Source: Geothrix terrae
GTDB lineage: Bacteria > Acidobacteriota > Holophagae > Holophagales > Holophagaceae
Assembly (NCBI RefSeq): GCF_022808775.1
Contig: NZ_JAKZLA010000008.1
Location: 62,001-126,000, forward strand
Direction: 5' to 3'
DNA: 64,000 nt
In this document: positions 6,559 through 64,000 of the stretch, piece by piece
Layout of the letters: every line of letters begins with the position of its first letter
Numbering within the stretch: the stretch's first letter is position 1
The notes under the pieces: model-generated
The model's database searches: none
What the model saw: the letters and a program-made list of their open reading frames with translations, nothing else
Told to the model about the DNA's origin: nothing
Program-made: the position numbers and the translations under genes

Positions 6559-6650
6559 CCTAAGGCGCCCGTGAGAACAGCGCCACGGGGAATGGATTGC
6601 CCCAAGAAAAAAGCGCTGAATGGAATCTGGTTCGGAATCTAAGGTCCGGC

Positions 6651-7694: not shown

Positions 7695-8797
7695 CAGGGC
7701 GGCACTCCGTTGCCAGAGAGGGCGTTCTCCGTGATGGTGTTGCCCGAGGACAGGTACTCGAGGATGCCGTTCAGGCGGTTCTGCGTCACGGTGTTGCGGG
7801 TGACGGTCGTGCCCGTGACCCCGTTCCTCAGGTAGATGCCGAAGCCGGCATTGCCCTGGACGGTGCTGTTCTTCACGACATGGCCGCCGGTGTTGGAGAC
7901 CTCAAGGCCGCTGCGGGGGCCCGAGCTGAGGCTGCTCGCGCCATTGCCGCTCATGGTGTTGCTCTCGATCACCACGTTGTAGATGAAGGCCAGGCCGGAA
8001 TAGGCGATGGGCACCCCCACCTCGATGCCGTCGCCCGCGTTGTTCGTGAAGACGCAACCCGTGATCAGCACGTTGTTGACCGTCTGGCCGCTGTTCGGCT
8101 CGATGTCGAGGCCGTCCTCGGGAAGGGTGCCGCCGGTGTTGGCGAAGCGGGAATCCCGGACGATGACGCCGTTCCCCCCGGTGATGGAGAGCCCCTGGCG
8201 GCGGTTGTGGTCCGCGGTGACGTGGCAGAGGGTCACGTCGCTGGCATCGGCGACCATGAACCCGTCGCCCCAGCATTCCCTCGCGGTGACCCCCACCACG
8301 GCGATGTGCTGGGCGCCGCCCGTGATCCGGAGTCCCATGCCCTGCTCGCCGGTGGTGCCCGTGTGGGCGCTGCGCTCGCCCAGGAGGGTGCCGCCCAGGA
8401 TGTTCACGTTCGAGACCCCGGACACGCGCAGGATGGTGTAGTTGTCCGCGCCGTTCGGGATGGCGGCCAGGATGGCGCCGCTGTCGAGGGAGAGGGTCAT
8501 GCCGCTCCTCAGGAGCAGGGAGGTGAGGGCATCCACCCGGTAGGTTCCCGCCGGGACCGAGACGGTGCCCCCGGTGCCGCCGACGGCATCGATGGCCTTC
8601 TGCAGGGCGGCCGTGTCATCGGTGGTTCCGTCGCTCTTGGCGCCGTAGGGCGCCTCCTTGACGTTCACGACCCGGGAGGATGCGGGCGTGGGGGTGCAGC
8701 TCGCCGCCGGCGGCTCGACCCCCCCCGCCGCTCCGGATCCACCCCCGTGGCAGGTGCACAGGAGGAGTCCCCCGCCGATCGCCAGGCCCCCAAACAT
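7694..8797 (-). CDS. Right-handed beta-helix lipoprotein (pectate-lyase-like)
   Basis: A 367-aa protein from the ATG at 8797 (ribosome site ggaagg). The first 15 residues form a hydrophobic stretch ending LLLC, a plausible lipobox, although the n-region lacks a positive charge unless an upstream in-frame start is used. From about 45 onward it shows the pectate-lyase-3 entry (VNVKEAPYGAKSDGTTDDT, then VPAGTYRV) and then many parallel beta-helix turns rich in N, T and G. Such proteins bind or cleave uronate-containing polysaccharides. A clear paralog lies at 32326-33513. It sits divergent to the polysaccharide export operon, so a role in trimming or organising the exported polymer is likely. 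Confidence 0.8.
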   Translation of the reverse strand: MFGGLAIGGGLLLCTCHGGGSGAAGGVEPPAASCTPTPASSRVVNVKEAPYGAKSDGTTDDTAALQKAIDAVGGTGGTVSVPAGTYRVDALTSLLLRSGMTLSLDSGAILAAIPNGADNYTILRVSGVSNVNILGGTLLGERSAHTGTTGEQGMGLRITGGAQHIAVVGVTARECWGDGFMVADASDVTLCHVTADHNRRQGLSITGGNGVIVRDSRFANTGGTLPEDGLDIEPNSGQTVNNVLITGCVFTNNAGDGIEVGVPIAYSGLAFIYNVVIESNTMSGNGASSLSSGPRSGLEVSNTGGHVVKNSTVQGNAGFGIYLRNGVTGTTVTRNTVTQNRLNGILEYLSSGNTITENALSGNGVPP

Positions 8798-49376: not shown

Positions 49377-51365
49377 GTGAAGCGGGTTATGCTCTTGGCC
49401 ATGTCCTCCGTGGAGCGCGAGTCCAACCCCCTGATGCAGGCCCGGAAACTGGTCAGGGGCAAGGCGCTCTCCCAGCAGGATCTCCAGCTGCTGAAGGAGA
49501 TCCTCCAATTTACAGAAGGGGAGCTCGGCCCCCTGCTCGACTCGGGGCCCAGTCAGGCCGCGCCCGCACCCGCGGCGCCCCAGCAGGCGAAGCTCCAGCG
49601 CTCCCTGGGCCTGTTCCTGGTCTTCCTCAACCACCTCTCCGGTCCGAAGCTGGGGAAGGACCGCGTGGCCATGGGGCTGGTCCTGTCCCACGCCCTGAAC
49701 GAGCTGAAGGCCCTCGCCCAGGAGGCCCACCTCGAGGTCCTCCATACCCACAAGGAACCACCCTGGGTGGTCTACCTCCTGGACCTGGTCGCCTCCCTCC
49801 GGACCATGGCCACCTCCTTCGGGCCGGAGGACCCCTTCCAGCTCCTGGACGACTGGGCGGCCTTCCTGCAGGAGCGGCGGGACAGCTTCAAGGAGCTGCT
49901 GGCGGTTCTCGTGGATGGGCCCGGGGGCGAGGAGCGGGTGTCCCAGCTCAACAGCCGCATGAAGGCGCTCAACCGGGCCCTCCAGGGCGCGGAGGGCCGG
50001 CCCATTGAGGCCATCCACCGGCTGGTGGACCTCCTGGAGACCTTCGTGCCCCGGGAGACCCTTTCGCGGGTCGAGCCCCTGCTGCTGGTCCAGCATGTGC
50101 TCGACACCCTCCGCCTGATCCTCCTGTGGCCCCTGGACCAGGGGATCAACTGGGGGGCCCTGGAACAGATCCGCGGCAGCCTCACCTGGCTCTGGAACCA
50201 CCTCGGCTGGTCGCTGCCCCGCTATGACAGCGGGCGGCTGGAATCCATGCTGACCCAGGAGGTCCGGGCCACCCTCAAGGGGGTGCGCGGATCCCAGCCC
50301 AAGGCCTACCGCGTGCTCGCCCACAGCCTGGCCTCCCACCTGACCATCCTGGGGCTCGTGGACCCGATCCCGCCCGCGGGGAACATGACCGAGCAGGAGC
50401 GCTACGCGGCCGTGCCCATCTACTTCGTCGTGGAACGGGAGCTGGCGCGGCTGGGGGACCAGCTGGGCCGGAGCAAGATCATGGAGGGCCTCCCCAAGGG
50501 GACGGAGGAGACCCTGCTGCTGTCGGCCTTCCTCCAGCAGGCGGTGTTCACCCTGAGCCAGGACCTGACCAGCATCCACGAGCTGCTGCATGAGGCCCTG
50601 GCCCAGGCGGACGCCGACCACCTGGCGCTCACCCTGGACCACCTGAAGAGCGGCCTCATCAACCACCAGCGGCAGCTGATGGCCGACCTGGTGAGGACCT
50701 TCTCGGCGGAACTGCGGCAGAGCATGTTCCCGAATTCCCCCACGCTGAAGGATGAGGGGGACCAGCTGCGGCAGCGCCTCTACCGCCTGTGGGAGCAGCT
50801 CGCCCGGCTCCTGCCCAGGCTCCGGGCCCAGGTCCGCGAGAAGGACTACCTGCGGCTTTCGCTTACGCTCTTCCAGGCCCACAACCACGTGAACGCCTTC
50901 CGCCGGAGCCCGGAGTTCTTCCTCATCCGGGCCCGCGACCGCTCCGAAATGGACCGGCTGACCGCGGCCTTCGGCCGCATCCTGGACGCCCAGAGCGACC
51001 TGGAGTTCGCGCTGGTGAGCGGAACCGAGCTCGTGGAGGAGCTGTTCGGCTACCTGGAGGAATTCCTGGGCCGGATCAACGCCCGGATGCCCCTCATCAG
51101 CCACGACCTCATGGTGGCGAAGGAGGCCTTCCGCCTCAGCCAGCAGCTGCAGGAATCGCAGGGAGCGGGCCCGGGCCGGACGCGGCTGACCAAGATCCTC
51201 ATCCAGTCCACCAAGAAGCTGGGCGTCCGCGACCCCCAGACCTTGTCCCTCCTGCGGCGCTGGGTGCGCTCGGAGCGGGGCCGGCGGGAGACGCCGGATC
51301 CCATCGACGCCCTCAGCTCCCACCTGGAGCGCCTGGTCACGCGCCTGGAAGCCGCGATGGGTTGA
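49377..51365 (+). CDS. Large helical protein of unknown function
   Basis: I do not recognise this 662-aa protein. It has no signal peptide, no membrane segment and no nucleotide-binding motif, and is predicted almost wholly alpha-helical with many Leu/Gln/Glu/Arg heptad-like stretches. A short Ala/Pro linker lies at about 57-70. Start is uncertain: GTG 49377 (gagagg upstream) or ATG 49389/49401. It follows the AmgK-like gene by 7 bp, so the two may be cotranscribed. A scaffold, or a regulator with HEAT-like or TPR-like repeats, is possible, but nothing in the sequence proves this. Confidence 0.75.
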   Translation: MKRVMLLAMSSVERESNPLMQARKLVRGKALSQQDLQLLKEILQFTEGELGPLLDSGPSQAAPAPAAPQQAKLQRSLGLFLVFLNHLSGPKLGKDRVAMGLVLSHALNELKALAQEAHLEVLHTHKEPPWVVYLLDLVASLRTMATSFGPEDPFQLLDDWAAFLQERRDSFKELLAVLVDGPGGEERVSQLNSRMKALNRALQGAEGRPIEAIHRLVDLLETFVPRETLSRVEPLLLVQHVLDTLRLILLWPLDQGINWGALEQIRGSLTWLWNHLGWSLPRYDSGRLESMLTQEVRATLKGVRGSQPKAYRVLAHSLASHLTILGLVDPIPPAGNMTEQERYAAVPIYFVVERELARLGDQLGRSKIMEGLPKGTEETLLLSAFLQQAVFTLSQDLTSIHELLHEALAQADADHLALTLDHLKSGLINHQRQLMADLVRTFSAELRQSMFPNSPTLKDEGDQLRQRLYRLWEQLARLLPRLRAQVREKDYLRLSLTLFQAHNHVNAFRRSPEFFLIRARDRSEMDRLTAAFGRILDAQSDLEFALVSGTELVEELFGYLEEFLGRINARMPLISHDLMVAKEAFRLSQQLQESQGAGPGRTRLTKILIQSTKKLGVRDPQTLSLLRRWVRSERGRRETPDPIDALSSHLERLVTRLEAAMG

Positions 51366-51614
51366 ACGCCTCCGGGCGGGGTGACCGGGCTGAGGACCCT
51401 GACCGGTCAAACATTGACCGCCATGGACAGATTCTGATCTAAGAACAGGATTCCGGATTCGTCGACCCTTAATTGGTAACTCGTATCATATGTATCGATG
51501 CAATTACGGATCGGGATTGGCCGCCGATTTGCAAACCCGGCTGTAGTAGCTGCCGGTTTTCGAACAGCGCCGGGACGCCCTGACGCCCCGGTCCTTCTCG
51601 TGTTGAGGGGCCCC

Positions 51615-51989
51615 ATGACCCAACGGAAAAAAATACTGCTCGTCGACGACTCCAGCACCGTGCTCATGGTCGAGCAGATGATCCTCAAGAACAGCCCCTT
51701 CGACATCCTGATCGCGAGGGACGGGGAGGCCGGGTTCGAGACGGCGCTGAAGGAGCGCCCCGACCTGATCCTGATGGACGTGATGATGCCGCGCATGGAC
51801 GGCTTCGACGCCCTGCGGGAGATCCGCGCCCATGAGGAGATCAAGGACATCCCCGTGATCATGGTGACCACCCGCGGCGAGGGCGTGAACATCGAGACCG
51901 GCTACACGGTCGGCTGCAACGACTACGTCACCAAGCCCATCAACGGATCCGAGCTGCTGAGCAAGATCAACAACCTCATCGGTTCCTGA
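51615..51989 (+). CDS. CheY-like single-domain response regulator
   Basis: A 124-aa stand-alone receiver. Acidic pocket Asp11/Asp12, phospho-acceptor Asp55 in LILMDVMMPRMDG, Thr85 in MVTTRGEG and Lys107 in YVTKPI. It opens the chemotaxis cluster and is the only CheY candidate in the window. The 249-bp upstream gap is AT-rich and contains a weak sigma-28-like site (TTAC-N15-GCCGATTT ending 51530). A poor ribosome site (gaggggcccc) precedes ATG. Confidence 0.88.
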   Translation: MTQRKKILLVDDSSTVLMVEQMILKNSPFDILIARDGEAGFETALKERPDLILMDVMMPRMDGFDALREIRAHEEIKDIPVIMVTTRGEGVNIETGYTVGCNDYVTKPINGSELLSKINNLIGS

Positions 51990-52042
51990 CGCCCGGAGCC
52001 TTCCCGGTCCCGAACAACCGCAGCCGATTGCTGGAGCCTTCC

Positions 52043-52801
52043 GTGGCCAACGAACCCAACCAAGAATCCTATGTCCGCCGCGTGCTGGAGGAGACGCGCG
52101 AGTACGAGCGCCGCCTCCGCGAGGACAACGAGGGGCTGAGGGAACTCGTCGCCACCCTCGAATGCGAGCGGGTGGCGCTCCAGAAGCGGGTCGAGGAGCT
52201 GGAGGCCGGCGCCAACCAGCAGATGAGCGAGCTGAGCGCCCTGCGGGAGCGGCTGACCGCCCAGGTGAACGCGAACCAGAAATCCACCGAGCAGCAGCTG
52301 GCCATCGAGCAGCAGAACACCAACCTGGCGAACCTCTACGTGGCGAGCTACCGGCTCAACAGCGCGCTGGACCGGGCGGAGCTCGTGGACGCCATCCGGG
52401 AGATCGTCATCAACCTGGTCGGCTGCGAGGAGTTCGCCCTGCTGGAGCCCGATGGCCATGGGGGGTGGCAGGTCTGCGATTCCATGGGGCTGCCCGATGA
52501 CTTCCTCGCCAGCATGACCCGTCCCGACGGGGCACTGGCCGGCCACCTGAAGTCCCGGAAGATGCACGTGACGGACCCGGCGGTCCTCAGCATGGACGAG
52601 CTGGACGTCTCCAGGCCCTCGGCCAGCATCGTCATGAGTGTCGGGGACGAGACGGTGGGAGCCGTCGCCATGTACCGCCTGCTGCCCCAGAAGTCCGGGC
52701 TCGAGCCCCTCGACCGGGAGCTCTTCGACCTGCTGGCCGCGAATGCGGCCATGGCCCTCTACCGGCTGAAGCTTCAGGAATTCGTGAAGGGCGGGAAGTA
52801 G
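52043..52801 (+). CDS. Coiled-coil GAF-domain protein of the chemotaxis cluster
   Basis: A 252-aa protein from GTG 52043 (ggag site); a TTG at 52028 is less likely. Residues 10-95 form a coiled coil (RRLREDNEGLREL and similar heptads). A GAF-like sensor domain follows at about 100-245 (NSALDRAELVDAIREIV, IVMSVGDETVGAVAMYRL, ELFDLLAANAAMALYR). It lies between the CheY-like gene and cheD, suggesting an accessory sensory or scaffold role. No output domain is present. Confidence 0.78.
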   Translation: MANEPNQESYVRRVLEETREYERRLREDNEGLRELVATLECERVALQKRVEELEAGANQQMSELSALRERLTAQVNANQKSTEQQLAIEQQNTNLANLYVASYRLNSALDRAELVDAIREIVINLVGCEEFALLEPDGHGGWQVCDSMGLPDDFLASMTRPDGALAGHLKSRKMHVTDPAVLSMDELDVSRPSASIVMSVGDETVGAVAMYRLLPQKSGLEPLDRELFDLLAANAAMALYRLKLQEFVKGGK

Positions 52802-52836
52802 CCACCCCCCGACGCTTGACCGCACCAAGGAGACCC

Positions 52837-53337
52837 ATGCCCCACTTGCCCGCCCCCGGCTGGATCCCGGCGGATGCCGCCAGCGGTGGTGTATCGGTCT
52901 ACCTGCACCCCGGGCACCTGCATGTCTCCCTCGTGCCCTGCACCATGACCACGATCCTGGGCTCCTGCGTGGCGGTCTGCCTCTGGGACCCCGTCTCGCG
53001 GGTCGGGGGCATGAACCACTTCCTGCTCGCCCACCATCCGGCGGGAGAGCCCGATTCCGCGCGCTACGGCGATTCGGCTACGGACATGCTGATCAGCGCC
53101 GCGGCCCGGGCGGGCGGATCCCTCGGGCGGCTCCAGGCCAAGCTCTTCGGTGGGGCCTGCGTGCTGGGATCGGCGGCTCCCGGCGCCAACCACCTCGGGC
53201 TCAAGAACGTGCAGGTGGCCCGGGAACGGCTCGCCGCCCATGGCATCCGCGTGGTGAGCGAGGACGTGGAGGGCGCCCGAGGCCGGAAGATCCACTTCCA
53301 GACCCTGGATGGCGCGGTGCTGGTGAGAACGCTCTAG
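52837..53337 (+). CDS. cheD: Chemoreceptor glutamine deamidase CheD
   Basis: A 166-aa CheD. The catalytic Cys lies in TILGSCVAVCLWD (Cys44) and His in GGMNHFLL (His61). The KLFGGACVLG and HFQTLDG blocks are typical. It deamidates Gln to Glu in receptor methylation helices. Strong aaggaga ribosome site; its stop lies inside the cheA ribosome site. Confidence 0.93.
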   Translation: MPHLPAPGWIPADAASGGVSVYLHPGHLHVSLVPCTMTTILGSCVAVCLWDPVSRVGGMNHFLLAHHPAGEPDSARYGDSATDMLISAAARAGGSLGRLQAKLFGGACVLGSAAPGANHLGLKNVQVARERLAAHGIRVVSEDVEGARGRKIHFQTLDGAVLVRTL

Positions 53338-53345
53338 GAGGCCGC

Positions 53346-54971
53346 ATGGACATCGATCTCAATGCCATCCGTGCGACGTTCTTCGCTGAGACCGGCGAGC
53401 ACCTGAACGAATTCGAGGGGGCTCTGATCGAGCTGGAGCGGCAGCCCGGGGACAAGGCCCTGGCCAAGACCATCTTCCGGATCGCCCACACCATCAAGGG
53501 CGACGCGTCCATGGTGGGCTACACGGCCATGACGGAATTCGCCCACGGGCTGGAGAGCCTGCTGGAGAAGATCTCCGGGGGCGGGCAGCCTTTCACGCCC
53601 GCCCTGGCCACCATCCTCCTGCGCTCCGTGGACGCCCTCCGGGCCCTGGCGGGGGCCGAGGATCCGAGCCTGATGCCGGCCAGCACCCGGGAGCTCCTGA
53701 ACGAGCTGGAAGGCGCCTCGCATGGGGGCGGTACGGCGCAGCAGGAGCCCCAGATCGGAGCCGAGCGGCGATCCCGGGCCCGGGACACGGCCAAGACCCT
53801 CCGGGTGAAGGTGGCCAAGCTGGACCGGATGCTGGACCTGGTCGGGGAGCTGGCCATCAGTCGCGGCCGCCTGGACACCCAGATCGCCACGCTTGCAGGT
53901 GCCAAGGCCTCGGCCATCCAGGACGCTCACCGGGACATGGATCGCCTCTTCAGCGAGCTCCAGGAGCACGTGATGCAGGCCCGGCTTGTGCCCGTCGGCA
54001 CCCTCTTCCAGGGGTACACGCGGGCGGTCAGGGACCTGGCCCTGCACACGGGCAAGGAGATCGACCTCGCCATCGAGGGCAGCGACGTGGAAGTGGACAA
54101 CGCCGTGGTCGAGCAGCTGCGGGAGCCCCTCATCCATCTCCTCAGGAACGCCATCGACCACGGCATCGAGAACGGGGTGGAGCGGCGCGCCGCGGGCAAG
54201 CCCCCCTGCGGGCATGTCAACCTGAGGGCCCGGCACGAATCAGCGTTCGTAGTCATCGAAGTCGCCGACGACGGCGGCGGGATGGCGCGGGAGAAGCTGC
54301 TGGCGCAGGCCCGGAAGTGGGGCGGTGTGGAGGACGTCGACCGGCTCAGCGACGCCGACCTCCAGGCCCTGATCTTCGAGCCCGGGTTCTCCACGGCCAC
54401 CCGGGTGACGGACCTCTCCGGCCGGGGCATCGGCATGGACATCGTGCGGCGCGCCGTGGAGCGGCTGCGGGGCACCATCTCCGTGAAGAGCGTTCTGGGC
54501 CAGGGCACCACATTCACGCTCCGGTTCCCGCTGACGCTCGCCATCATCGAGGGGTTCGGGGTCACGGCCGGGGACGAGTCCTACGTCATCCCGCTGGATG
54601 CGGTGGTCGAATGTGTCGATCTCCCGGCCGAGCAGCGCAGCGAGACCGAGGGTTCCGGCGTGCTCAGCCTGAGGGGCGAGCCGCTGCCCTACCTGGGCCT
54701 CCAGGAGCTCTTCCGCTTCGGGACGGGCGGCGAGGGCCGCCGGAAGATCGTCGTGGTCCGCCATGGCGAGGGCCTAGCGGGGATCGCCGTGGACGACCTC
54801 CAGGGCGAGTGCCAGGCCGTGATCAAGCCGCTGGGCAACCTGTTCAAGCAGACCATCGGCATCTCGGGCTCCACCATCCTGGGCAACGGCCGGGTCGCCA
54901 TGATCCTGGACGTCCCGGCCCTCCTGCGCGAGGCGGTGGTCCGCACCGCAGCCCGCGGCGAGGCGCCCTGA
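53346..54971 (+). CDS. cheA: Chemotaxis histidine kinase CheA
   Basis: A 541-aa kinase. The HPt domain holds phospho-His48 in IFRIAHTIKGDASMVG. There is no clear P2 CheY-binding domain, only a short Ala/Gly-rich linker at about 125-150, so it is shorter than E. coli CheA (654 aa). Dimerisation helices come next (about 155-225). The HATPase has HLLRNAIDHG, VADDGGGM and RGIGMDIV. The C-terminal CheW-like P5 domain covers about 400-535. Ribosome site taggagg. Confidence 0.94.
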   Translation: MDIDLNAIRATFFAETGEHLNEFEGALIELERQPGDKALAKTIFRIAHTIKGDASMVGYTAMTEFAHGLESLLEKISGGGQPFTPALATILLRSVDALRALAGAEDPSLMPASTRELLNELEGASHGGGTAQQEPQIGAERRSRARDTAKTLRVKVAKLDRMLDLVGELAISRGRLDTQIATLAGAKASAIQDAHRDMDRLFSELQEHVMQARLVPVGTLFQGYTRAVRDLALHTGKEIDLAIEGSDVEVDNAVVEQLREPLIHLLRNAIDHGIENGVERRAAGKPPCGHVNLRARHESAFVVIEVADDGGGMAREKLLAQARKWGGVEDVDRLSDADLQALIFEPGFSTATRVTDLSGRGIGMDIVRRAVERLRGTISVKSVLGQGTTFTLRFPLTLAIIEGFGVTAGDESYVIPLDAVVECVDLPAEQRSETEGSGVLSLRGEPLPYLGLQELFRFGTGGEGRRKIVVVRHGEGLAGIAVDDLQGECQAVIKPLGNLFKQTIGISGSTILGNGRVAMILDVPALLREAVVRTAARGEAP

Positions 54972-55051
54972 GCCGGCCCCGGCCGAAAATCCGCCATTTC
55001 CACTTCAGACCCAGATCCTCCCATCCGTTTGATAAGTAGAAAGGAGTCCCC

Positions 55052-56692
55052 ATGCTCTCAATCCGAGACCTGAAGATCAGGACGAAGCTGTTCCTGGCGT
55101 TCGGGATCATCGCCGCCCTCCTCGTGGCCGTGGCCCTGGTCGGCAATAACGCCGTCGATCAGCTCAGCCGGGAAGCCAACGGCATCCTGAGCCACGAGTA
55201 CGCACTCGCTGAATCCTTCACGAACATCGGCACGGACACCCTCAACCTCCGCCGCTACGAGAAGGATGTATTTCTCAACTTCGAGGACGCGGCCAAGCGG
55301 GAGGGCTACGTCCGGAAGTGGAAGGAGACCCACGCTTCCCTGGTCGAGACCCTCGACCAGGTCGAGAAGCGGCTCGAGGCCAGTGAGGACAAGGATGCCG
55401 TCCGGGCGATCCGACTGGACCTCGGCACCTACAGCACGGAGTTCGAGCGCGTCATCCCCCAGATCGACATGGGCCTGTTCAAGACCTCGCAGGAGCTGAA
55501 CAAGGCGGAGGATCCCTTCAAGGATGCCGTCCACCGGCTCGAGGCCACCTCGGAAAAGGCGATGGCCAGGCATGAGAAGGAGATGACCGCGAAGGCCCAG
55601 CAGATGCAGGGTTTCTCCCAGACTGTGCTCCGGATGGTCATGGTGGTCACGATCGCTTCGGTGATCGCGGCGCTGGTGGTGGCCTGGCGGATCTCCCGGG
55701 GCATCTCCGTCCCCCTGCTCCGGGTGGCCGAGGGCATGCGGAAGATGGCCGACGGGGACCTGAGGGACAAGGTCGATGTGGCGGGCAAGGACGAGCTGGC
55801 CGAGATGGGCGTCGCGTTCAACCGCATGGTGGAGAACCTGTCCCAGACCATCGGAGAGGTGAGGACGGGCGCCAACGCGCTGGCCTCGGCGGCCCAGCAG
55901 GTGTCCTCCACCTCGCAGGGGCTCTCCCAGGGGACCAGCGAACAGGCCTCGTCCGTGGAGGAGACCACCGCCAGCCTCGAGGAGCTGAGCAGCTCCATCG
56001 AGCAGAACGCCGACAACAGCCGCCAGACCGAGCAGATGGCCATGCAGAGCGCCCGGGACGCCGACGAGAGCGGCCAGAGCGTGGAGAAGACCGTCGAAGC
56101 CATGAAGATGATCGCCGAGCGCATCTCGATCATTGAGGAGATCGCCTACCAGACCAACCTGCTGGCGCTGAACGCGGCCATCGAGGCGGCGCGGGCCGGT
56201 GAGCACGGCCGCGGGTTCGCCGTGGTGGCCACCGAGGTCCGCAAGCTGGCGGAGCGCAGCCAGGGTGCGGCCAAGGAGATCAACGAAGTGGCGGGCGGCA
56301 GTGTGGGGGTGGCCATCAAGTCGGGCGAGCAGCTGAAGGAGCTCGTCCCCGCCATCCGCAAGACCGCCGAGCTGGTCCAGGAGGTGGCGGCCACGTCGCG
56401 CGAGCAGGCCAGCGGCGTGAAGCAGATGAACAAGGCCATGACCCAGGTGGACCAGGTCACCCAGCGGAACGCCTCGGCCGCCGAGGAGCTCTCCTCCACG
56501 GCGGAGGAGCTCGCCTCCCAGGCGGAGGCCCTCCAGCAGCTGGTGGCCTTCTTCAAGGTGACCGGCGAGGAGACGGTCTCGCGGCACGCCCCCGTCGCCC
56601 ACTTCATGCACCCGGAACCCGCCCCGCTGGCGGGCAGAACCTTGAAGCCCGCGGTCGGCCTCGGCCAAGACCAGCACTTCAAGCGGTTCTGA
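55052..56692 (+). CDS. Methyl-accepting chemotaxis protein
   Basis: A 546-aa receptor. TM1 at about 12-32, a 4-helix-bundle-type periplasmic domain at about 33-188, TM2 at about 190-212 and HAMP at about 213-266. The signalling domain follows, with hairpin tip [20 protein letters not shown] then [16 protein letters not shown]. The C-terminus ends HFKRF and lacks the NWETF-type tether for CheR/CheB. Ligand unknown. Strong aaaggag site. It lies between cheA and cheW, so it probably signals through this cluster. Confidence 0.93.
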
Positions 56693-56703
56693 GGGAGGCG
56701 GCG

Positions 56704-57252
56704 ATGGACATGAGCGTTCTGGCCGATCTGGCCAACCACGATCAAAGCCAGTACCTGTCGTTCTTCCTCGCGGACGAGGAGTTCGCGGTGAGGATCCTGA
56801 AGGCCCGGGAGATCCTGGAGTACGGGACGGTCACCAAGGTGCCCGGGGCCCCTCCGACGGTGCGCGGGGTGATCAACCTGCGCGGCGCCGTGGTGCCCGT
56901 GGTGGACCTGGCGCTGAAGTTCGGGCTTCCCGAGCGGGAAGTCACGAAGCGGACCTGCGTCGTGATCGTCGAGGTGGGCGCGGGCGAGGACAAGACGACC
57001 ATGGGGGTGATCGTGGATTCGATCAGCCAGGTGGTCGACCTTCCGGAGGAGCAGATCGAGCCTGCGCCCGACTTCGGGACCAAGGTCAAGCTGGAGTACC
57101 TGCTCGGGATGGGGCGCTCCGGGAAGAAGTTCGTGATGGTCCTGGACATCGACAAGGCCCTGTCCCCGTCCGAGCTCTCCTCGGTCACCGCCATCGCAGG
57201 GCAGGCCGCGGAGGCGGCGCCGGAAGGCGCGGAACCCGCGCCGGGCGATTGA
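56704..57252 (+). CDS. cheW: Chemotaxis coupling protein CheW
   Basis: A 182-aa CheW-like SH3-fold protein: YLSFFLADEEFAVRILKARE, GAPPTVRGVINLRGAVVPVVDL, MGVIVDSISQVVDL. It links CheA to receptors. The last 20 residues form an Ala/Glu/Pro tail absent from minimal CheW. Ribosome site gggagg. Confidence 0.93.
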   Translation: MDMSVLADLANHDQSQYLSFFLADEEFAVRILKAREILEYGTVTKVPGAPPTVRGVINLRGAVVPVVDLALKFGLPEREVTKRTCVVIVEVGAGEDKTTMGVIVDSISQVVDLPEEQIEPAPDFGTKVKLEYLLGMGRSGKKFVMVLDIDKALSPSELSSVTAIAGQAAEAAPEGAEPAPGD

Positions 57253-57268
57253 AAGGCCACCCCCACCC

Positions 57269-58186
57269 ATGGACCAACCGCGGCGCCCCGCCTCTCCCGC
57301 GTCTGAGGCAGCAGGGGACTACTCGATCCGGAAGGAGGAGTTCCGCGCCTTCCAGGACCTGATCCACCGGGAATCCGGGATCTTCCTCGCGGACCACAAG
57401 CTGGCCCTCCTAGGGGGCCGCCTCCACGCGCGGCTCCGCGCCCTGGGCATGACCAGCTACGGGGAGTATTTCAAGGCCGTCCAGAAGGACGAGGCCGAGC
57501 GCATCGAGATGCTCGACCGGATCTCGACCAACGAGACCCACTTCTTCCGGGAGCCCCACCAGTTCGAATTCCTGAAGACCCGGGTGCTGCCCAGGTGGGT
57601 GGAGGATGCCCAGGCCGGAAGACGGCCCCGGTCCATCCGGGTCTGGAGCGCCGCCTGCTCGACGGGCGAGGAGCCCTACTCCATCGCCATGCTGCTGCTG
57701 GACCAGCTCCCGGCCTCGGAGGGCTGGTCCATCGAGATCCTGGGCACCGACATCTCCACCCGGGTGCTGCAGAAGGCCAAGGACGCGCTCTGGCGCATCG
57801 AGAAGGCCGAGGAGATCCCCACGCCCTACCTCAAGGCCTTCATGCTCGAAGGGACGGGCCCCGAGAAGGGCAAGATGAAGGCCGGACCCGAGATCCGGTC
57901 GCTGGTCTCCTTCTCCCGGATGAACCTGAACAGCCGGCCCTACCCCGTCCCCGGCGGGTTCGACATCATCTTCTGCCGGAACGTCCTGATCTACTTCAAC
58001 ACGGCCACCAAGGCGGGGGTGGTGGAGGAGCTGCTGGCGCATCTGGCGCCGAGCGGCTTGCTGCTCCTCGGACACGCCGAAAGCCTCCACGGCCTCACCG
58101 AGCAGGCGCGCAGCGTGGGACCCACCATCTACGCGCCGCTCCAGTCCACCTACTTCAGCGGGCAGAGGCTGCCACGGCTGCGCTGA
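57269..58186 (+). CDS. cheR: Chemotaxis protein methyltransferase CheR
   Basis: A 305-aa SAM-dependent receptor methyltransferase. It has an N-terminal helical domain with STNETHFFREPHQFE, the SAM-binding loop VWSAACSTGEEPYSIAM, and FDIIFCRNVLIYFN near the end. It methylates receptor glutamates. No TPR extension is present. Confidence 0.94.
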   Translation: MDQPRRPASPASEAAGDYSIRKEEFRAFQDLIHRESGIFLADHKLALLGGRLHARLRALGMTSYGEYFKAVQKDEAERIEMLDRISTNETHFFREPHQFEFLKTRVLPRWVEDAQAGRRPRSIRVWSAACSTGEEPYSIAMLLLDQLPASEGWSIEILGTDISTRVLQKAKDALWRIEKAEEIPTPYLKAFMLEGTGPEKGKMKAGPEIRSLVSFSRMNLNSRPYPVPGGFDIIFCRNVLIYFNTATKAGVVEELLAHLAPSGLLLLGHAESLHGLTEQARSVGPTIYAPLQSTYFSGQRLPRLR

Positions 58187-58194
58187 CCGTGATT

Positions 58195-58221
58195 TCAAGG
58201 GTCGGGTCCGCCCGCCGATAA
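58195..58221 (+). promoter_or_regulatory. Sigma-28 (FliA) promoter upstream of cheB
   Basis: TCAA at 58195-58198, a 15-bp spacer, then GCCGATAA at 58214-58221. The consensus is TAAA-N15-GCCGATAA, so the -10 is perfect and the -35 has one mismatch. The predicted start near 58230 leaves about 80 nt before the cheB ATG. Confidence 0.7.
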
Positions 58222-58311
58222 GAACTCCGACGTACGTATTCTCTTGTCTCGCCGCGTCGGGCCACGTACTTCTTTAGCGAGGCCAGGACCACGCAGGCAG
58301 GGTGGAGCGCG

Positions 58312-59391
58312 ATGCCAGAACTCCAGCGGAACCCCGGACAGCTCCCGATCCAGGTCCTGGTGGTGGACGATTCGGCCGTGGTCCGGCAGGCGCTCACGGC
58401 CATCCTGGGCCAGGAGCGGGACATGCGGGTGGTGACCGCGCAGGATCCCATCTTCGCCCTCCAGAAGATGCAGACCCTGCGCCCGGATGTCATCGTCCTG
58501 GACCTCGAGATGCCCCGCATGGACGGCATCACCTTCCTGCGCCGGCTGATGAAGGACGATCCCCTGCCCGTGGTGATCTGCTCGAGCCTGGCCGCCCGGG
58601 GGGCGGAGGCGGCCATGCTGGCCCTCGAGGAGGGAGCCCTGTCGGTCATCACCAAGCCCAAGCTCGGCGTCCGGGATTTCCTGCACGAGTCGGCCATGCA
58701 GATCATCGACACGGTGCGCGCCGCCGCCCACTCCCGGCTGCGCCGGAGGCGGGCCGCGCCTCAGCACCGGCCCCCCCTCGAGACCGGGGCGCCCGTGCTG
58801 GGGACCACCACGGACCAGGTGGTGGTGGTGGGCGCGTCCACGGGGGGGACGGAGGCGCTCCGGGAGCTGCTGTCCGCCATGCCGGTGGACTGCGCGGGCA
58901 TCGTGGTCGTCCAGCACATGCCGGAGCTGTTCACGGCCGCGTTCGCCAAGCGGCTCAACGAGGTCTGCAGGATCGAGGTGAAGGAGGCGGCGGACGGCGA
59001 CGGGATCCTCGTGGGGCGCGCCCTGATCGCGCCCGGGAACCGCCACACGGAGGTGGCGCGGTCCGGCGGCCGCTACGTCGTCCGCGTGAGCGACGGGCCC
59101 CTGGTCTCCCGCCACCGCCCGAGCGTGGATGTCCTGTTCCACTCCGCCGCCCGCGCCGCCGGATCCAATGGGGTGGGCGTGATCATGACGGGGATGGGGG
59201 ATGACGGCGCCAACGGCATGCTGGAGATGAAGCGGGCCGGCGCCTACAACCTCGCCCAGGACGAAGCCACCTGCGTGGTGTACGGCATGCCCAAGGAGGC
59301 GGTGGACCGCGGCGGCGTGGACGCCGTGGTGCCGCTCCAGGCGCTGCCGAAGGCCATCTTGGACGCCGTGCGGCGGGGACGGCGGGGCTGA
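58312..59391 (+). CDS. cheB: Chemotaxis response regulator methylesterase CheB
   Basis: A 359-aa protein. The receiver has phospho-acceptor Asp64 in VIVLDLEMPRMDG. The methylesterase catalytic triad is seen as Ser in VGASTGGTEAL, His in VVQHMPELFTAAFA and Asp in GMGDDGANGM. It removes methyl groups from receptors and can deamidate glutamines. A dedicated sigma-28 promoter match lies upstream although it follows cheR by only 125 bp. Confidence 0.95.
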   Translation: MPELQRNPGQLPIQVLVVDDSAVVRQALTAILGQERDMRVVTAQDPIFALQKMQTLRPDVIVLDLEMPRMDGITFLRRLMKDDPLPVVICSSLAARGAEAAMLALEEGALSVITKPKLGVRDFLHESAMQIIDTVRAAAHSRLRRRRAAPQHRPPLETGAPVLGTTTDQVVVVGASTGGTEALRELLSAMPVDCAGIVVVQHMPELFTAAFAKRLNEVCRIEVKEAADGDGILVGRALIAPGNRHTEVARSGGRYVVRVSDGPLVSRHRPSVDVLFHSAARAAGSNGVGVIMTGMGDDGANGMLEMKRAGAYNLAQDEATCVVYGMPKEAVDRGGVDAVVPLQALPKAILDAVRRGRRG

Positions 59392-59416: not shown

Positions 59417-61027
59417 CTACTCGGCTTTGAGTCGCACCGAGAAGGAGTACATCTTCGAGTTGGAGTACCGCGTGACCACGCGGAAGTTCCGCAGCAGGTA
59501 CCAGCACCGGGCCTTCACGTTGCCGTCCGGGGTGGAGGACCAGAGGTTGGATTCGTCGTCCGGGTTCAGGAAGTCGCCGTAAGGGTTCCGGTGGCCCACG
59601 AAGGGGATCTGGAGGATGGCCTGGCCGTTCGCGAGGCGGCTGTTGTCGCTCAGCCCCGGGATGGCTTCGAAGATCGTGCCCCACTCGTCGTCCGAGGGGA
59701 TGCGGGACCCGAACAGCTTCATGGCGGCGTGCCAGGTGAACAGGGTGCTTCCGTTGAACTCGTAGATGCCCTCCCGGTGGTCCGGAGCGGCGACTTCATT
59801 GTGGCGCCGCAGCCCGATGCCCCCCACCTCGACGGAATCCGGGTGGACGGTGATGGCGTGGACCTTGGCCAGCTCTTCCGGAGTGCCGGCGTAGCGCTCC
59901 TCCAGCTCGAGGAGGAACTGGATCACGGGATCGTCGGCCGGGGCGGTGTGGCGGGCGGGAGAGGGCGTCGGAGCGGGCCTTTCCGACTGGAGCCGGACGG
60001 TCCCCAGCAGGAGGTCGGCCTCCTGCTGGAAGGTGGACACCGGGACCTGGATGCCCGCCTCGATCAGCTTAGCCGCCCTCGCGATGCGTTCGGACAGCAC
60101 GCCGTGGATCAGGAGCGCCTCCTCGTGGAGGCGGAGGATCTCCGGGGTGTCCAGGGGGGCCGGAGGGCTCGGAGCGGGGTGGAACAGGAGCTGGGCCCCG
60201 GCGGGGGTCAGCTCCTTGCCCTCGGAGGGCTCGAGGCTGGGACGCGTGTCTTCGTGGAGGAGGTCAGGCGGGAAGGCCCTGGGGGGCGGTTGGAGGACGG
60301 GCGGAATCCGGTCGGAGGCCTCCGGAGAGGAGGAACCCTCGATCGGGGCGCGCAGGGCCTCATCCCGCAGCCTCAGGCCCTCCAGGAGCACCATGGCCGT
60401 GCTCTCCCGGATGGAGTGCATGGGCGCCTCGGCGCCCTCCTGCATGTCGAAGTTGCCGCCCTTCCAGGCGATGAGGTCGTAGACCGCCTGGGCTCCGGTG
60501 ACCTGGTCCCGGACCGCGTGGACCACCTGGCCGTCCTTGAGCCAGACGCGGCCCGTCTGCCGGCCCAGCCGCACGGTCAGGCACCCCGTGTTCCGGGTGG
60601 CGGAGTACAGCTGAACGAGGTCCACGAACCCCAGGCTCAGGGAGCCGGTGAAGCCACCCTGGTTGGACTGGATGGCGAGATCGACCTCCTCGATGAGGGC
60701 CTTGGGGGCGAACGGCTTCTCGACGAAGCCGAAGGCGCCCCGCTGATCGATCTCCTTGCGCATCTGGGGGCTGCCGAAGGCCGTGATGAAGATGATGGAG
60801 AGGTCGGGCTGGATCTTCTGGGCCTGGATCATCAGGTCGATGCCGTTCACCACAGGCATCTGGAAATCGGTGATCAGGACGTCGATCTTCTCCCGATGGA
60901 GGAGGGACAGGGCCTCCATGGGGTTGGAGCAGATCTTGAAATCCACGGTCGGGCGCTCACGCGCGAAGTGCTGAGACACCGACCAGAGGAGATCCTCTTC
61001 GTCATCCACCATCAGGACACTGGCCAT
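59417..61027 (-). CDS. Response regulator with DUF4388 and FISUMP-like C-terminus
   Basis: A 536-aa protein. The receiver (1-118) has Asp54 in VLITDFQMPVVNG. A DUF4388/PatA-like domain follows at about 124-225 (GFTGSLSLGFVDLVQLYSA, then GRVWLKDGQVVHA). A Pro-rich linker and short helical section cover about 230-375. The last 135 residues resemble the FISUMP (Fibrobacter major paralogous) domain: LFTWHAAMKLFGSRIPSDDEW, GHRNPYGDFL, NLWSSTPDGN and YSFSVRLKAE. No signal peptide, although FISUMP domains are usually extracellular. Start ATG 61027 fits the receiver fold; an ATG at 61066 is possible. Convergent with cheB. Confidence 0.82.
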   Translation of the reverse strand: MASVLMVDDEEDLLWSVSQHFARERPTVDFKICSNPMEALSLLHREKIDVLITDFQMPVVNGIDLMIQAQKIQPDLSIIFITAFGSPQMRKEIDQRGAFGFVEKPFAPKALIEEVDLAIQSNQGGFTGSLSLGFVDLVQLYSATRNTGCLTVRLGRQTGRVWLKDGQVVHAVRDQVTGAQAVYDLIAWKGGNFDMQEGAEAPMHSIRESTAMVLLEGLRLRDEALRAPIEGSSSPEASDRIPPVLQPPPRAFPPDLLHEDTRPSLEPSEGKELTPAGAQLLFHPAPSPPAPLDTPEILRLHEEALLIHGVLSERIARAAKLIEAGIQVPVSTFQQEADLLLGTVRLQSERPAPTPSPARHTAPADDPVIQFLLELEERYAGTPEELAKVHAITVHPDSVEVGGIGLRRHNEVAAPDHREGIYEFNGSTLFTWHAAMKLFGSRIPSDDEWGTIFEAIPGLSDNSRLANGQAILQIPFVGHRNPYGDFLNPDDESNLWSSTPDGNVKARCWYLLRNFRVVTRYSNSKMYSFSVRLKAE

Positions 61028-61151
61028 GGTCGAATGGGATGCAATGGGGAGGCCAAGTGTTCGCATGTTATTAATTGAATGTAATATTAGACTTAAATGT
61101 TAACGGAGTCGAATTCGGAGCGGCGATCCGGATCATTTATTAACCAGGTGA

Positions 61152-62498
61152 TCAGTCTTTGACCGGGTAAGCTCCCGCCTTCCGGAGCCAGGACCGGAGG
61201 GTCACCCGGGTCACGCCCAGGGTTCTCGCCGTCTGGCTGAGGTTGCGTCCGGAGGCCTCCCAGGCTTCCACCATCCGGCTCCGCATCGTGTCCTCCAGGC
61301 GCTCCTGGGGCGCGGGCGGCAGGGAGGCCGCGGAGGATCCGGCGATCTCGGAGGGCAGGTCCGCCAGCTGGATCTCGGCCCTGGGCGTGAGGATGGTGGC
61401 GCGCTCCAGGACGTTGCGCAGCTCGCGGATGTTTCCGGGCCACCGGTAGCGGGTCAGGGCCGCCATGGCCTCGGCCGAGCAGCCCGAAGGAGCGGCGCCC
61501 ATGCTCTCCCGGAACTTCGCCAGGAAGCAGTCCGCCAGGAGCGGAATGTCCTCCAGCCGCTCCCGCAGCGACGGCAGGTGCACGGCCAGGACCTTGAGGC
61601 GGAAGTAGAGATCCTCCCGGAAGCGGCCGGCCTCGACGAAGGCCGAGAGCTCCCGGTGGGTCGCGGCCACGATGCGGACATCCACCTGGATCTCCCGCTC
61701 CCCGCCCACCCGGCGGAAGGGGTGCCCTTCCAGCACCCGCAGCAGCTTGGGCTGGAGGTCCAGGGGGAGCTCCCCGATTTCGTCCAGGAAGAGCGTGCCC
61801 CGGGAGGCCAGCTCGAACAGGCCCCGGCGGGCCGACTTGGCGCCCGTGAAGGCGCCGGCCTCGTGGCCGAACAGCTCGGATTCCACCAGCTCCTTGGGCA
61901 GGCAGGCCGCGTTGACCACGACGAAGGGGCCATCCTTCCGGGGACTGGCGCGGTGGACGAAGCGGGCGGCCAGCTCCTTGCCGGTGCCCGTCTCCCCCGT
62001 GATGAGCACCGGGGCATGCACGGCTCCCGCGGCCTGGGTGAGGGCCCGCATGGCCCGCTGGAAGGCCGGAGCCGAGCCCACGATCCCCTCCCCCGCCATC
62101 GACTGGCGCCGCATGGCCTCGAGGCTACGGCGGAGGGTGCTCTGCTCGAGGGCGGCCGAGAGGCTCGAGAAGAGCGTCTCGGCTCCCACCGGCTTGGTGA
62201 GGTAGTCCGCCGCGCCGAGGCGGAGGGCCCGGATGGCGGAAGCCGCCTCGTCGCGGGCGGTAAGGACGAGGACGGGCGTGGTGGGATCCTGGGCCAGGAG
62301 GCCTTTGAGCAGATCGTGCCCGTCCTCGTCGGGCAGGCCGAGGTCCATCACCACCAGGTCGTGGAGGGCCCTGGCGGCCAAGCTCCTCGCCTGGGCGGCC
62401 GTGGCGGCGCGTTCGACCTCGTACCCTTGGCGGCTCAGCAGCCCGGTGAGGGCGAAGGCCAGGTCATCGTCATCTTCCGTCAGCAGCACCCTGGGCAC
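61152..62498 (-). CDS. NtrC-family sigma-54 response regulator
   Basis: A 448-aa activator starting at GTG 62498 (gggagg site). The receiver has Asp52 in VVMDLGLPDEDG. The AAA+ domain has GETGTGKE, ESELFGHEAGAFTGA (intact GAFTGA) and LFLDEIGE. A Fis-type helix-turn-helix closes the protein (LSQTARTLGVTRVTLRSWLRK). It overlaps the upstream kinase gene by 29 bp, so the two form a two-component pair. Target promoters are not visible nearby. Confidence 0.93.
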   Translation of the reverse strand: MPRVLLTEDDDDLAFALTGLLSRQGYEVERAATAAQARSLAARALHDLVVMDLGLPDEDGHDLLKGLLAQDPTTPVLVLTARDEAASAIRALRLGAADYLTKPVGAETLFSSLSAALEQSTLRRSLEAMRRQSMAGEGIVGSAPAFQRAMRALTQAAGAVHAPVLITGETGTGKELAARFVHRASPRKDGPFVVVNAACLPKELVESELFGHEAGAFTGAKSARRGLFELASRGTLFLDEIGELPLDLQPKLLRVLEGHPFRRVGGEREIQVDVRIVAATHRELSAFVEAGRFREDLYFRLKVLAVHLPSLRERLEDIPLLADCFLAKFRESMGAAPSGCSAEAMAALTRYRWPGNIRELRNVLERATILTPRAEIQLADLPSEIAGSSAASLPPAPQERLEDTMRSRMVEAWEASGRNLSQTARTLGVTRVTLRSWLRKAGAYPVKD

Positions 62499-63570
62499 GA
62501 GGGGCCTCCCGTGGGAGCGAGAGCAGGAGGCAGGTCTCCTGCTGGGGGATGGAGGTGGCCACCAGGCTGCCCTGGTTCTCCAGGGCCAGGCGGTGGGCGA
62601 TGGCCAGCCCGATCCCGGTTCCCTTGGGCTTGGTGGAGAAGAAGGGCGAGAAGATCTTGGTCAGCAGCTGGGGGGGGATGCCGGGGCCGTCGTCGTAGAT
62701 GCGGATGTGGGTCATGGTCTGCCCCCGGAGGGTTCCCGCGGAGGCCGCCTCGATCCGGATGCGGGTGGGATCCTTCACGGCGTCCAGGGCGTTCTCCAGG
62801 AGCGCCACGAGGATGCTCACGGTCTGCACCTCGTCCGCGTAGACCGTGAGGCCGCCCGGCGGAACGGAGAGGGTGGGGCTGGTGCCGAAGGGGCGCAGCC
62901 GGCCCTCGAGGCTCTCCATGGATCGGAGCACCATGGACTTCACGTCGAGGACCTTGGGGGTGGGCACCGAGGGGCGGCTGAAGTCGAGGAAGACCTTCAT
63001 GAGCGATTCGATGCGCAGGGCCAGCTTCTGGAGACGCTCCACGCACTCCAGCTGGGGGCCGGGCTGGAGATCCTGGTTCAGGAGCTCGCAGAGGGTCCGG
63101 ATGGAGGCCAGGGGGTTCCGGACTTCGTGGGCGAAGGAGGCGGCCAGCTGCCCCAGGTCCGAGTAGCGTTGGCGCTGGCGCTCGTTCTCCTGGAGGTTCC
63201 AGAACTCCGCCTTCTGCCGGATGGCGGCCGAGAGCCCTTCGAAGAGGACGTCGGGCGTGACCGGCTTGGTGAGGTAGTCCGTGGCGCCGTACCGGAGGCC
63301 CCGGATGGCGGAAGCCGCGTCGTCGCGGGTGGTCATGACGAGGATGGGCAGGCTGGGGTGCTGGTACGACAGCCCGCGCAGCAGGTCGAATCCGTCCTCG
63401 TCCGGTAGGCCCAGGTCCATGATCAGCGCATCGTAGGTCGTCCGTGAGAGGCAGTCCCTCGTCTCCGAGGCATTGGCGGCCCAGTGGACCGAGCAGCCGC
63501 GGGTCCTCAGCATCTCCTCGGCCATCATCGCCGTGACCGGATCGTCTTCGGTGAGCAGAATCGAGTACAT
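62470..63570 (-). CDS. Receiver-histidine kinase hybrid
   Basis: A 366-aa cytoplasmic protein with an N-terminal receiver (Asp52 in LIMDLGLPDEDG) followed by a HisKA domain (phospho-His148 in FAHEVRNPLASI). The intact HATPase has LLENALDAV, YDDGPGIPP and KGTGIGLAIAHRL. The receiver precedes the kinase, unlike classic hybrids. It is strikingly similar to the receiver of the next gene, so one probably arose by duplication. No membrane segment; the input is unknown and may be phosphotransfer to its own receiver. Confidence 0.9.
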   Translation of the reverse strand: MYSILLTEDDPVTAMMAEEMLRTRGCSVHWAANASETRDCLSRTTYDALIMDLGLPDEDGFDLLRGLSYQHPSLPILVMTTRDDAASAIRGLRYGATDYLTKPVTPDVLFEGLSAAIRQKAEFWNLQENERQRQRYSDLGQLAASFAHEVRNPLASIRTLCELLNQDLQPGPQLECVERLQKLALRIESLMKVFLDFSRPSVPTPKVLDVKSMVLRSMESLEGRLRPFGTSPTLSVPPGGLTVYADEVQTVSILVALLENALDAVKDPTRIRIEAASAGTLRGQTMTHIRIYDDGPGIPPQLLTKIFSPFFSTKPKGTGIGLAIAHRLALENQGSLVATSIPQQETCLLLSLPREAPRAQGAADGR

Positions 63571-63707
63571 GGCATCCAGGAGAGGGTCGGGCGGGCCGGA
63601 GCAATGTGCGGCTTGGCGCGGGTTTCTTCAGGGTACCGCAAAGGCGGGGCAGGGCCGTGGCTTTCCGGGCCCTGGAAAACAGAGGATCATGTCCTTCGGC
63701 CACCGCC

Positions 63708-64000
63708 ATGCAACCGCCTCCCCTGCCTCCCGATGAAGCCTTCCGTCTGGAGGTGGTGCGGAGCCTCGGCCTCCTGGACACCCCGGGGGAGGAGCGTTTC
63801 GACCGCATCGCCCGGGCGGCGGCCCGGTTCTTCCGGGCGCCTGTCGCCTTCGTGGCCCTGGTGGACGCCACACGCCTGTGGCTCAAAGCCCGCCAGGGGC
63901 TCGACCAGGTTGAGGCGCCGCGGGACCTGTCGTTCTGCGGCCACGCCATCCTGGCCTGGGAGCCCTTCGTCGTGGAGGATGCCCGCCTCGACGCGCGGTT
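63708..64000 (+). CDS. GAF-domain sensory protein (5' part, runs off the window)
   Basis: An open frame from ATG 63708 to the window edge (97 codons). It reads EVVRSLGLLDTPGEERFDRIARAAA, then VALVDATRLWLKARQGLD, DLSFCGHAI and VVEDARLDAR. That order is the common GAF domain found at the N-terminus of GGDEF proteins and histidine kinases. The output domain lies outside the window. Divergent from the receiver-kinase gene. Confidence 0.8.
   Translation, partial: MQPPPLPPDEAFRLEVVRSLGLLDTPGEERFDRIARAAARFFRAPVAFVALVDATRLWLKARQGLDQVEAPRDLSFCGHAILAWEPFVVEDARLDAR

Follow-up and report, generated by a model that had tools for sequence, protein, structure and literature searches.

Response regulators in which a receiver is combined with a PATAN domain are found in cyanobacterial phototaxis. 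The accessible parts of the published accounts name PixG, PixE and LsiR, place several of these PATAN-CheY proteins in chemotaxis-like systems, and describe binding of their PATAN domains to the pilus motor PilB (PMC10519157, PMC7690835). C-type-lectin folds are described in other settings. According to excerpts of the respective papers (PMC11162425, PMC10769870), the C-terminal domains of Legionella Lcl (DUF1566, PF07603; pdb 8q4e) and Bdellovibrio Bd2740 (pdb 8oks) are tips of surface adhesins. Cytosolic signalling proteins ending in such a fold are reported, in the available portions of PMC7159879 and PMC8195603, for FGS conflict-system domains and DGR variable proteins; Fib_succ_major domains appear among DGR targets in extracts from PMC4159848 and PMC8143477.

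This analysis concerns a Geothrix protein that brings together a receiver, a DUF4388 domain and a C-terminal tail resembling FISUMP (Fib_succ_major; PF09603, TIGR02145). DUF4388 is taken here to be equivalent to PATAN. On this basis the protein shares receiver and PATAN with the phototaxis regulators; it differs in that its receiver comes first, whereas PATAN is N-terminal in PixG (as far as the same accounts go), and in its additional lectin-fold tail. With FISUMP the tail shares the order of motifs, a profile-profile match and a lectin-like fold, but it scores below both curated cut-offs, has a degenerate hairpin, is fused to receiver and DUF4388, and comes without an export signal. The Lcl and Bd2740 domains, which have the same fold and are the best structural matches, are unlike it in their location at the cell surface; PF07603 is absent from the Pfam matches of the tail at E 1. 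The FGS and DGR proteins also end in this fold inside the cell, but belong to another family (PF03781), and the Geothrix genome has no reverse-transcriptase match and a tail that is not hypervariable. In two other Geothrix genomes (G002, G009), a REC-DUF4388 regulator likewise takes third place in a kinase/NtrC-type cassette that has a sigma-54-type site; its tail is Roadblock-like where the present one is FISUMP-like.

The literature searched contained no mention of FISUMP and never brought DUF4388 together with a response regulator; among the literature matches listed, no title or abstract opening concerned a receiver-FISUMP protein. The novelty is moderate: the fusion is seen in none of the 52 other FISUMP frames examined, but leaderless FISUMP-like viral proteins and, judging by the available part of PMC7159879, cytosolic lectin-fold FGS domains already exist. 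An earlier, sequence-only reading had noted a cytoplasmic response regulator fused to a FISUMP-like domain and had seen in it a new, phosphorylation-controlled use of the fold; the observation is confirmed, and the interpretation is partly supported.

Domain layout of the regulator

The window, that is, the whole stretch of 64,000 nucleotides of Geothrix terrae DNA that was analysed, encodes a response regulator of 536 amino acids at 59417-61027, defined by translation, Pfam and orthologues in four other Geothrix species. This span had been given exactly by the sequence-only reading; the strand is minus. The ATG lies at 61027 and the stop codon at 59417-59419. An in-frame ATG is also present upstream, at 61066, within the window. 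Since L055 and L056, which are two of the four orthologues from other species, have no ATG, GTG or TTG in frame between the preceding stop and MASV, the start is likely to be 61027 rather than 61066.

Both domains proposed earlier for the N-terminal part score over their Pfam cut-offs. The receiver (residues 4-115; 60683-61018, minus strand) matches PF00072 with 76.4 bits and E 2.4e-21, and D8, D9, D54, T82 and K104 are all present in the translation. As in the CheY family, these presumably provide the acid pocket, the phospho-accepting Asp, the Thr and the Lys. The domain is a CheY-like receiver with intact phosphorylation residues; that it is phosphorylated, and that this affects the tail, we infer. 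The DUF4388 domain (residues 132-223; 60359-60634, minus strand) matches PF14332 with 72.3 bits (cut-off 25) and E 4.6e-20. DUF4388 is not confined to this protein, with 10 matches in the genome of the window and 7-10 in each of four Geothrix genomes searched.

A variable, Pro-rich linker (residues 228-290; 60158-60346, minus strand) follows; when the window is compared with three orthologues, its identity is 35-77%, and that of the FISUMP-like domain 85-97%. Residues 291-385 (59873-60157, minus strand) have no Pfam match, and helices are predicted there only in a low-confidence full-length AlphaFold2 model, which is poor (pLDDT 44), so that no domain geometry can be read from it. The FISUMP-like, C-type-lectin-fold domain, supported by hhalign with decoys, structural matches and conservation, occupies residues 386-536 (59420-59872, minus strand). 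The protein opens directly with the first strand of the receiver, and its hydropathy, averaged over 19 residues, peaks at 1.06; in agreement with the earlier claim, no export signal was seen by inspection of the N-terminus and hydropathy.

Identity, fold and distribution of the tail

The three motifs originally pointed out, TWHAAM...SDDEW, WSSTPDGN and YSFSVRL, are present and keep the FISUMP order (YxW.xA, PS/T..EW, WSST, SVR). At the place of the FISUMP N-terminal hairpin, VxIGxQxWMxENL, the tail has the degenerate sequence VEVGGIGLRRHNEV. Curated profiles score the region below threshold: the whole protein reaches 15.1 bits (E 0.028) with PF09603 in Pfam, FISUMP is absent among the 25 NCBIfam matches listed for it, and the tail alone (151-169 residues) reaches 19.5-20.0 bits with PF09603 (cut-off 33.9) and 22.4-23.0 bits with TIGR02145 (cut-off 41.65). 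A search of PHROGs gave a single weak match to the tail, of unknown function (E 0.064).

Profile-profile comparison gives a clearer result. In a single hhalign comparison, the five Geothrix tails matched ten Acidobacteriota FISUMP domains with a probability of 97.4 (E 1.2e-11), co-linearly from tail columns 43-148 of 151 to FISUMP columns 36-156 of 158; none of 30 column-shuffled decoys exceeded 2.7, and the reversed profile gave 0.1. On sequence grounds, the tail is homologous to FISUMP, though below both curated cut-offs and with a degenerate hairpin; the domain is therefore named FISUMP-like here and not filed in PF09603. Of the earlier description as a typical FISUMP domain, the family relationship stands, and the word 'typical' does not, given the scores and the hairpin.

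Further profiles point the same way. An HMM built from four Geothrix and three viral rows recovered 8 of the 12 Acidobacteriota genomes with FISUMP at E 2e-5 to 2.5e-15 and did not find G093, G211, G327 and G332; it also gave short matches in G092, G117, G135 and G320 (27-41 profile positions, E 0.0045-0.0097). An HMM of Geothrix tails only found one true FISUMP protein (E 0.002) and one false match (E 0.004). The latter, in G165, was rejected, its frame being ATPase-like by eye.

A model of the tail was predicted with AlphaFold2 from an alignment (A7) of the window tail, four named orthologues and 22 of the 42 viral FISUMP frames. It has a pLDDT of 68 and a pTM of 0.62 over 171 residues, with block values of 80-90 for residues 61-90 and 111-160, and 58-59 for residues 91-110. 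Foldseek returned no PDB match under E 0.001. A VIA second look listed 31 structural rows, and the 23 that score highest are all C-type-lectin-like entries, assigned by title or, for 8oks, 8q4e and 4eps, by papers. First comes the C-terminal domain of Bd2740, at Z 6.4 with an rmsd of 3.4 over 73, followed by that of Lcl, at Z 5.5 with an rmsd of 3.1 over 78. In the viral structure library, a phage FISUMP protein is the sole match under E 0.001 (E 1.9e-4). The VIA scores are moderate, with Z values under 8 throughout, and the model is biased by the viral FISUMP rows in its alignment. As a predicted model, the tail resembles C-type-lectin folds.

The tail is present in 5 of 77 family genomes, all Geothrix, at E 8e-88 or better; the sixth match is a 23-residue scrap. 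A 37-residue open frame in G041 (L038, 1477-1587) is like the ARCWYLLRNFRVVT stretch of the tail (E 0.006) and is perhaps a remnant. The closest named orthologue of the regulator, in G. paludis SG195, is 97% identical, and each of the five species has an intact frame. Few parts of the protein are as well conserved as the tail: 123 of its 151 positions are invariant across the five species, including 42 of the last 44, and comparison of the window with three orthologues gives a dN/dS of 0.095-0.186. A DGR target was considered and rejected, because the genome (97.68% complete) has no PF00078 match and the last tail positions are nearly all invariant.

Close relatives were found neither in phage records nor in plasmids, and a Geothrix-only alignment gave 33 pattern matches in viral contigs, none of which was confirmed. 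A scan of genome contigs from 84,980 species (one genome per species) yielded 35 pattern stretches, of which four were confirmed, all Geothrix; it relies on near-exact short patterns and misses distant relatives. The nearest non-Geothrix relatives seen are viral-contig proteins with 25-33% identity. Two viral-contig FISUMP-like proteins (L138:4992-5486 and L140:2440-2934) are small, and an N-terminal stretch is common to them and to the Geothrix tail. Neither shows a leader by eye, so the lack of export is not unique to the Geothrix regulator. The differences between these two lie mainly towards the C-terminal end; no template repeat was found in the stretches inspected near them, and the protein of L138 has no match in phage records.

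PF09603 itself occurs at E 0.001 or better in 12 of 396 Acidobacteriota genomes (11 over the cut-off), none of them Geothrix, and FISUMP domains are encoded at 47 viral-contig loci. The open frames surveyed come from 42 of the 47 viral loci (leaving out L067, L068, L085, L097 and L103) and 10 of the 12 acidobacterial ones, among which L051 was omitted as a short frame and L052 as FGE-like by eye. None of these 52 frames matches PF00072 or PF14332 at E 0.001; the receiver-DUF4388-FISUMP layout is thus absent from all of them, the sequence-only reading having advised a search for receiver-FISUMP proteins. This profile-level survey covered Acidobacteriota genomes and viral contigs; Bacteroidota or Fibrobacterota may still encode a receiver-FISUMP protein. 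FISUMP had also been called best known from secreted proteins, which is part of the picture: 7 of the 10 acidobacterial frames have a hydrophobic leader by eye. The remainder includes L043, a true acidobacterial FISUMP protein without a leader (by eye), and the viral loci, some leaderless and some tail-fibre, a phage tail-collar fibre N-terminus being found on 4 of the 52 frames. A few viral-contig FISUMP proteins have lipoprotein-like leaders by eye.

Cassette, che genes and promoters

In all five species, the FISUMP-like regulator is the last gene of a cassette that begins with a REC-HisKA-HATPase histidine kinase, here called the receiver-kinase (62470-63570, minus strand; Pfam), and continues with an NtrC-type sigma-54-dependent response regulator (61152-62498, minus strand; PF00072, PF00158 at E 2.8e-66, HTH_8 sub-threshold). 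Of 47 Geothrix genomes, the five that carry the FISUMP-like regulator are also exactly those with the receiver-kinase (E 1e-60 or better). Identity of the NtrC-type regulator to its counterparts in the four other species is 85-98%. Only the start of a divergent GAF-PAS-HisKA-HATPase-REC hybrid kinase lies in the window (63702-64000, plus strand); the gene continues beyond it, its domains being taken from Pfam on L104:6703-8670.

On the other side lie eight che genes in one direction, namely cheY, a GAF-like gene (sub-threshold), cheD, cheA, mcp, cheW, cheR and cheB (51615-59391, plus strand; Pfam). They are convergent with the regulator gene, and cheB is next to it. The four other species keep the order of these eight, at 76-100% identity, and all 11 genes, cassette and che together, are in order in the four named species with 74-100% identity. 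Among eight cassette-free Geothrix genomes, five have a cheB at E 1e-60 or better, with a best identity of 50%, and three have none; this comparison by cheB yielded no clean empty site, and with no cheB above 50% identity there, the che set seems restricted in the same way. Co-occurrence and synteny may also reflect inheritance of the block in one clade. Upstream of the che operon, a 662-residue protein (49377-51365, plus strand) has no Pfam match at E 0.001.

G002 and G009 each have a sister cassette in which a histidine kinase and an NtrC-type regulator accompany a REC-DUF4388 protein whose tail is Roadblock-like, again with a sigma-54-type site (Pfam for the G009 set only); this tail reaches 15.1 of the 23 bits needed for PF03259 and is thus sub-threshold. 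The REC-DUF4388 body is kept and the head exchanged, Roadblock-like for FISUMP-like; the sister cassette shows a head that varies on one body. The sister sites (L105 near 7638-7720, L106 near 6475-6570) combine a sigma-54-type site with a GGTTCA-N3-TGAACC dyad, the latter seen by eye; the dyad pattern search, which required spacers of 4-5 bases, did not report it.

A sigma-54-type promoter, TTGGC-N7-TTGC (GG-N10-GC), lies 13 nt before the regulator ATG (61041-61056, minus strand) in all five species, with a distance of 12 nt instead in G. fermentans. The five species agree at 15 positions of the 19-nt promoter block; in the intergenic background, from which this block and a second conserved block beside the NtrC stop codon are excluded, they agree at 13 of 82. 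A similar promoter precedes cheY and the che operon (51517-51532, plus strand), again in all five species. The window thus holds two sigma-54-type sites, where 0.30 are expected and 5 of 100 shuffles give at least two. The distance between promoter and ATG (61027-61056, minus strand) predicts a near-leaderless transcript, with a leader of 0-3 nt. An RNA fold of the intergenic block showed no extra stability over shuffles (z 0.77).

Upstream of each promoter is a probable activator dyad. The one at the regulator gene, CGGTCAAAGACTGATC (61150-61165, minus strand), overlaps the coding end of the NtrC-type gene and lies 108 bp upstream of the promoter, with equal spacing in all five species; the one before the che promoter is CGGTCAAACATTGACCG (51404-51420, plus strand), at 108-112 bp in five species. 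Both are of the form GGTCA-N5-TGAYC, and the dyad-to-promoter distance is 108-112 bp throughout. With one mismatch allowed, this pattern, which was composed after both sites had been seen, matches the window three times at two places, against an expectation of 0.41; 1 of 100 shuffles reaches three. RpoN is encoded in the genome. GG-N10-GC, dyad, NtrC-type activator and RpoN are all present, as sequence features, and the simplest reading is that one sigma-54 regulon, driven by the NtrC-type regulator of the cassette, would cover both the che genes and the regulator gene.

Proposed role and alternative readings

The reading preferred here, to which we give an even chance, is that the protein acts in the cytosol as a phospho-regulated adaptor and is produced along with the che system; its DUF4388 would dock on a machine, and its lectin-fold tail would bind a partner. 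A wider version, put forward tentatively and at rather less than an even chance, holds that a chemosensory system obtains from its own sigma-54 regulon a regulator with a lectin-fold head, an adhesin-type module kept inside the cell under phosphorylation control, and that several heads, Roadblock-like and FISUMP-like among them, can be exchanged on a common REC-DUF4388 body.

Two alternatives concern what the tail is. The C-terminal region could be related not to FISUMP but to the C-terminus of MltB/SLT_2 lytic transglycosylases: SLT_2 (PF13406) scores 17.7 bits with the whole protein and 20.2-20.4 bits with the tail (20.4 bits at E 3.2e-4 over residues 108-148 of the 151-residue tail), slightly ahead of PF09603 by E-value, all five orthologues match (in the window, residues 495-533; 59429-59545, minus strand), and the only two PDB matches by sequence, both at E~1, are lytic transglycosylases. 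However, the score is under the cut-off of 24.3 bits, and only profile positions 250-289 of 292 are covered, by the last ~40 residues of the tail, so the catalytic domain is missing. The FISUMP match persists at 92.4 when the last 41 residues are removed (tail residues 1-110), the tail end alone matches FISUMP in register (68.4), and the predicted model places strands in this end. The short likeness is probably a coincidence, and the transglycosylase origin very improbable. The profile search that the sequence-only reading had called for was divided, with FISUMP found by profile-profile comparison, and curated profiles sub-threshold and SLT_2 slightly better by E-value. Its view that scoring to a different family would refute it is, read strictly, touched by SLT_2 over those last residues, and countered by the profile-profile match (97.4, with decoys of at most 2.7). 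It is also hard to believe that the tail is a relic, fused from a phage or secreted protein and now without function; its restriction to five species of one genus and the viral-contig origin of its nearest outside relatives are in keeping with this, but the low dN/dS, the intact frames in every species and the conservation of the tail relative to the rest of the protein speak against it.

Two others accept the lectin fold and differ in its use. As a sensor, the tail would bind a cytosolic ligand (a nucleotide, oligosaccharide, peptide or component of an invading phage) that gates phosphorylation or DUF4388 docking. The related fold of the Lcl C-terminal domain binds sulphated glycosaminoglycans according to the excerpt of PMC11162425, cytosolic lectin-fold FGS domains belong to conflict systems in the available part of PMC7159879, and the invariance of most tail positions suits a fixed ligand no less than a fixed partner; the position of the gene among che and NtrC-type genes argues against it, and we hold a sensor to be possible but rather unlikely. 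Less likely still, and doubtful as a whole, is a scaffolding or oligomerisation module, such as a trimeriser, that clusters the regulator without a specific ligand. The two top structural matches, the Bd2740 and Lcl domains, are trimeric, and trimer formation is one role suggested for DUF1566, in the portions of PMC10769870 and PMC11162425 at hand.

For the adaptor, a sequence of events can be proposed. A kinase relay, formed by the divergent GAF/PAS hybrid kinase and the receiver-kinase, would activate the NtrC-type regulator, which would bind the GGTCA-N5-TGAYC dyads and open the sigma-54 promoters of the che operon and the regulator gene; by acting at both promoters, it would cause the chemosensory system and the FISUMP-like regulator to be co-produced. 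The receiver would then be phosphorylated by the receiver-kinase or CheA. DUF4388 may dock on a motility or surface machine, in the way that PATAN engages the motor of the type IV pilus. The lectin-fold head, carried by a flexible linker, may bind a specific partner, probably a protein. The Roadblock family includes MglB. PATAN genes are occasionally found near MglA or MglB genes, as the accessible part of PMC4316618 has it, and this fits the Roadblock-like sister regulator.

If the adaptor reading is true, a domain of external or virion binding tips can act as the output head of a phosphorylation switch. Two promoters, one activator and one regulator would make a compact, testable system in Geothrix, present also in the named strain G. 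fermentans DSM 14018, and a handle on the role of DUF4388 regulators in Acidobacteriota. Beyond the end of the window, an Hpt-domain protein (L104:8702-9151) adjoins the divergent hybrid kinase and possibly belongs to the same relay.
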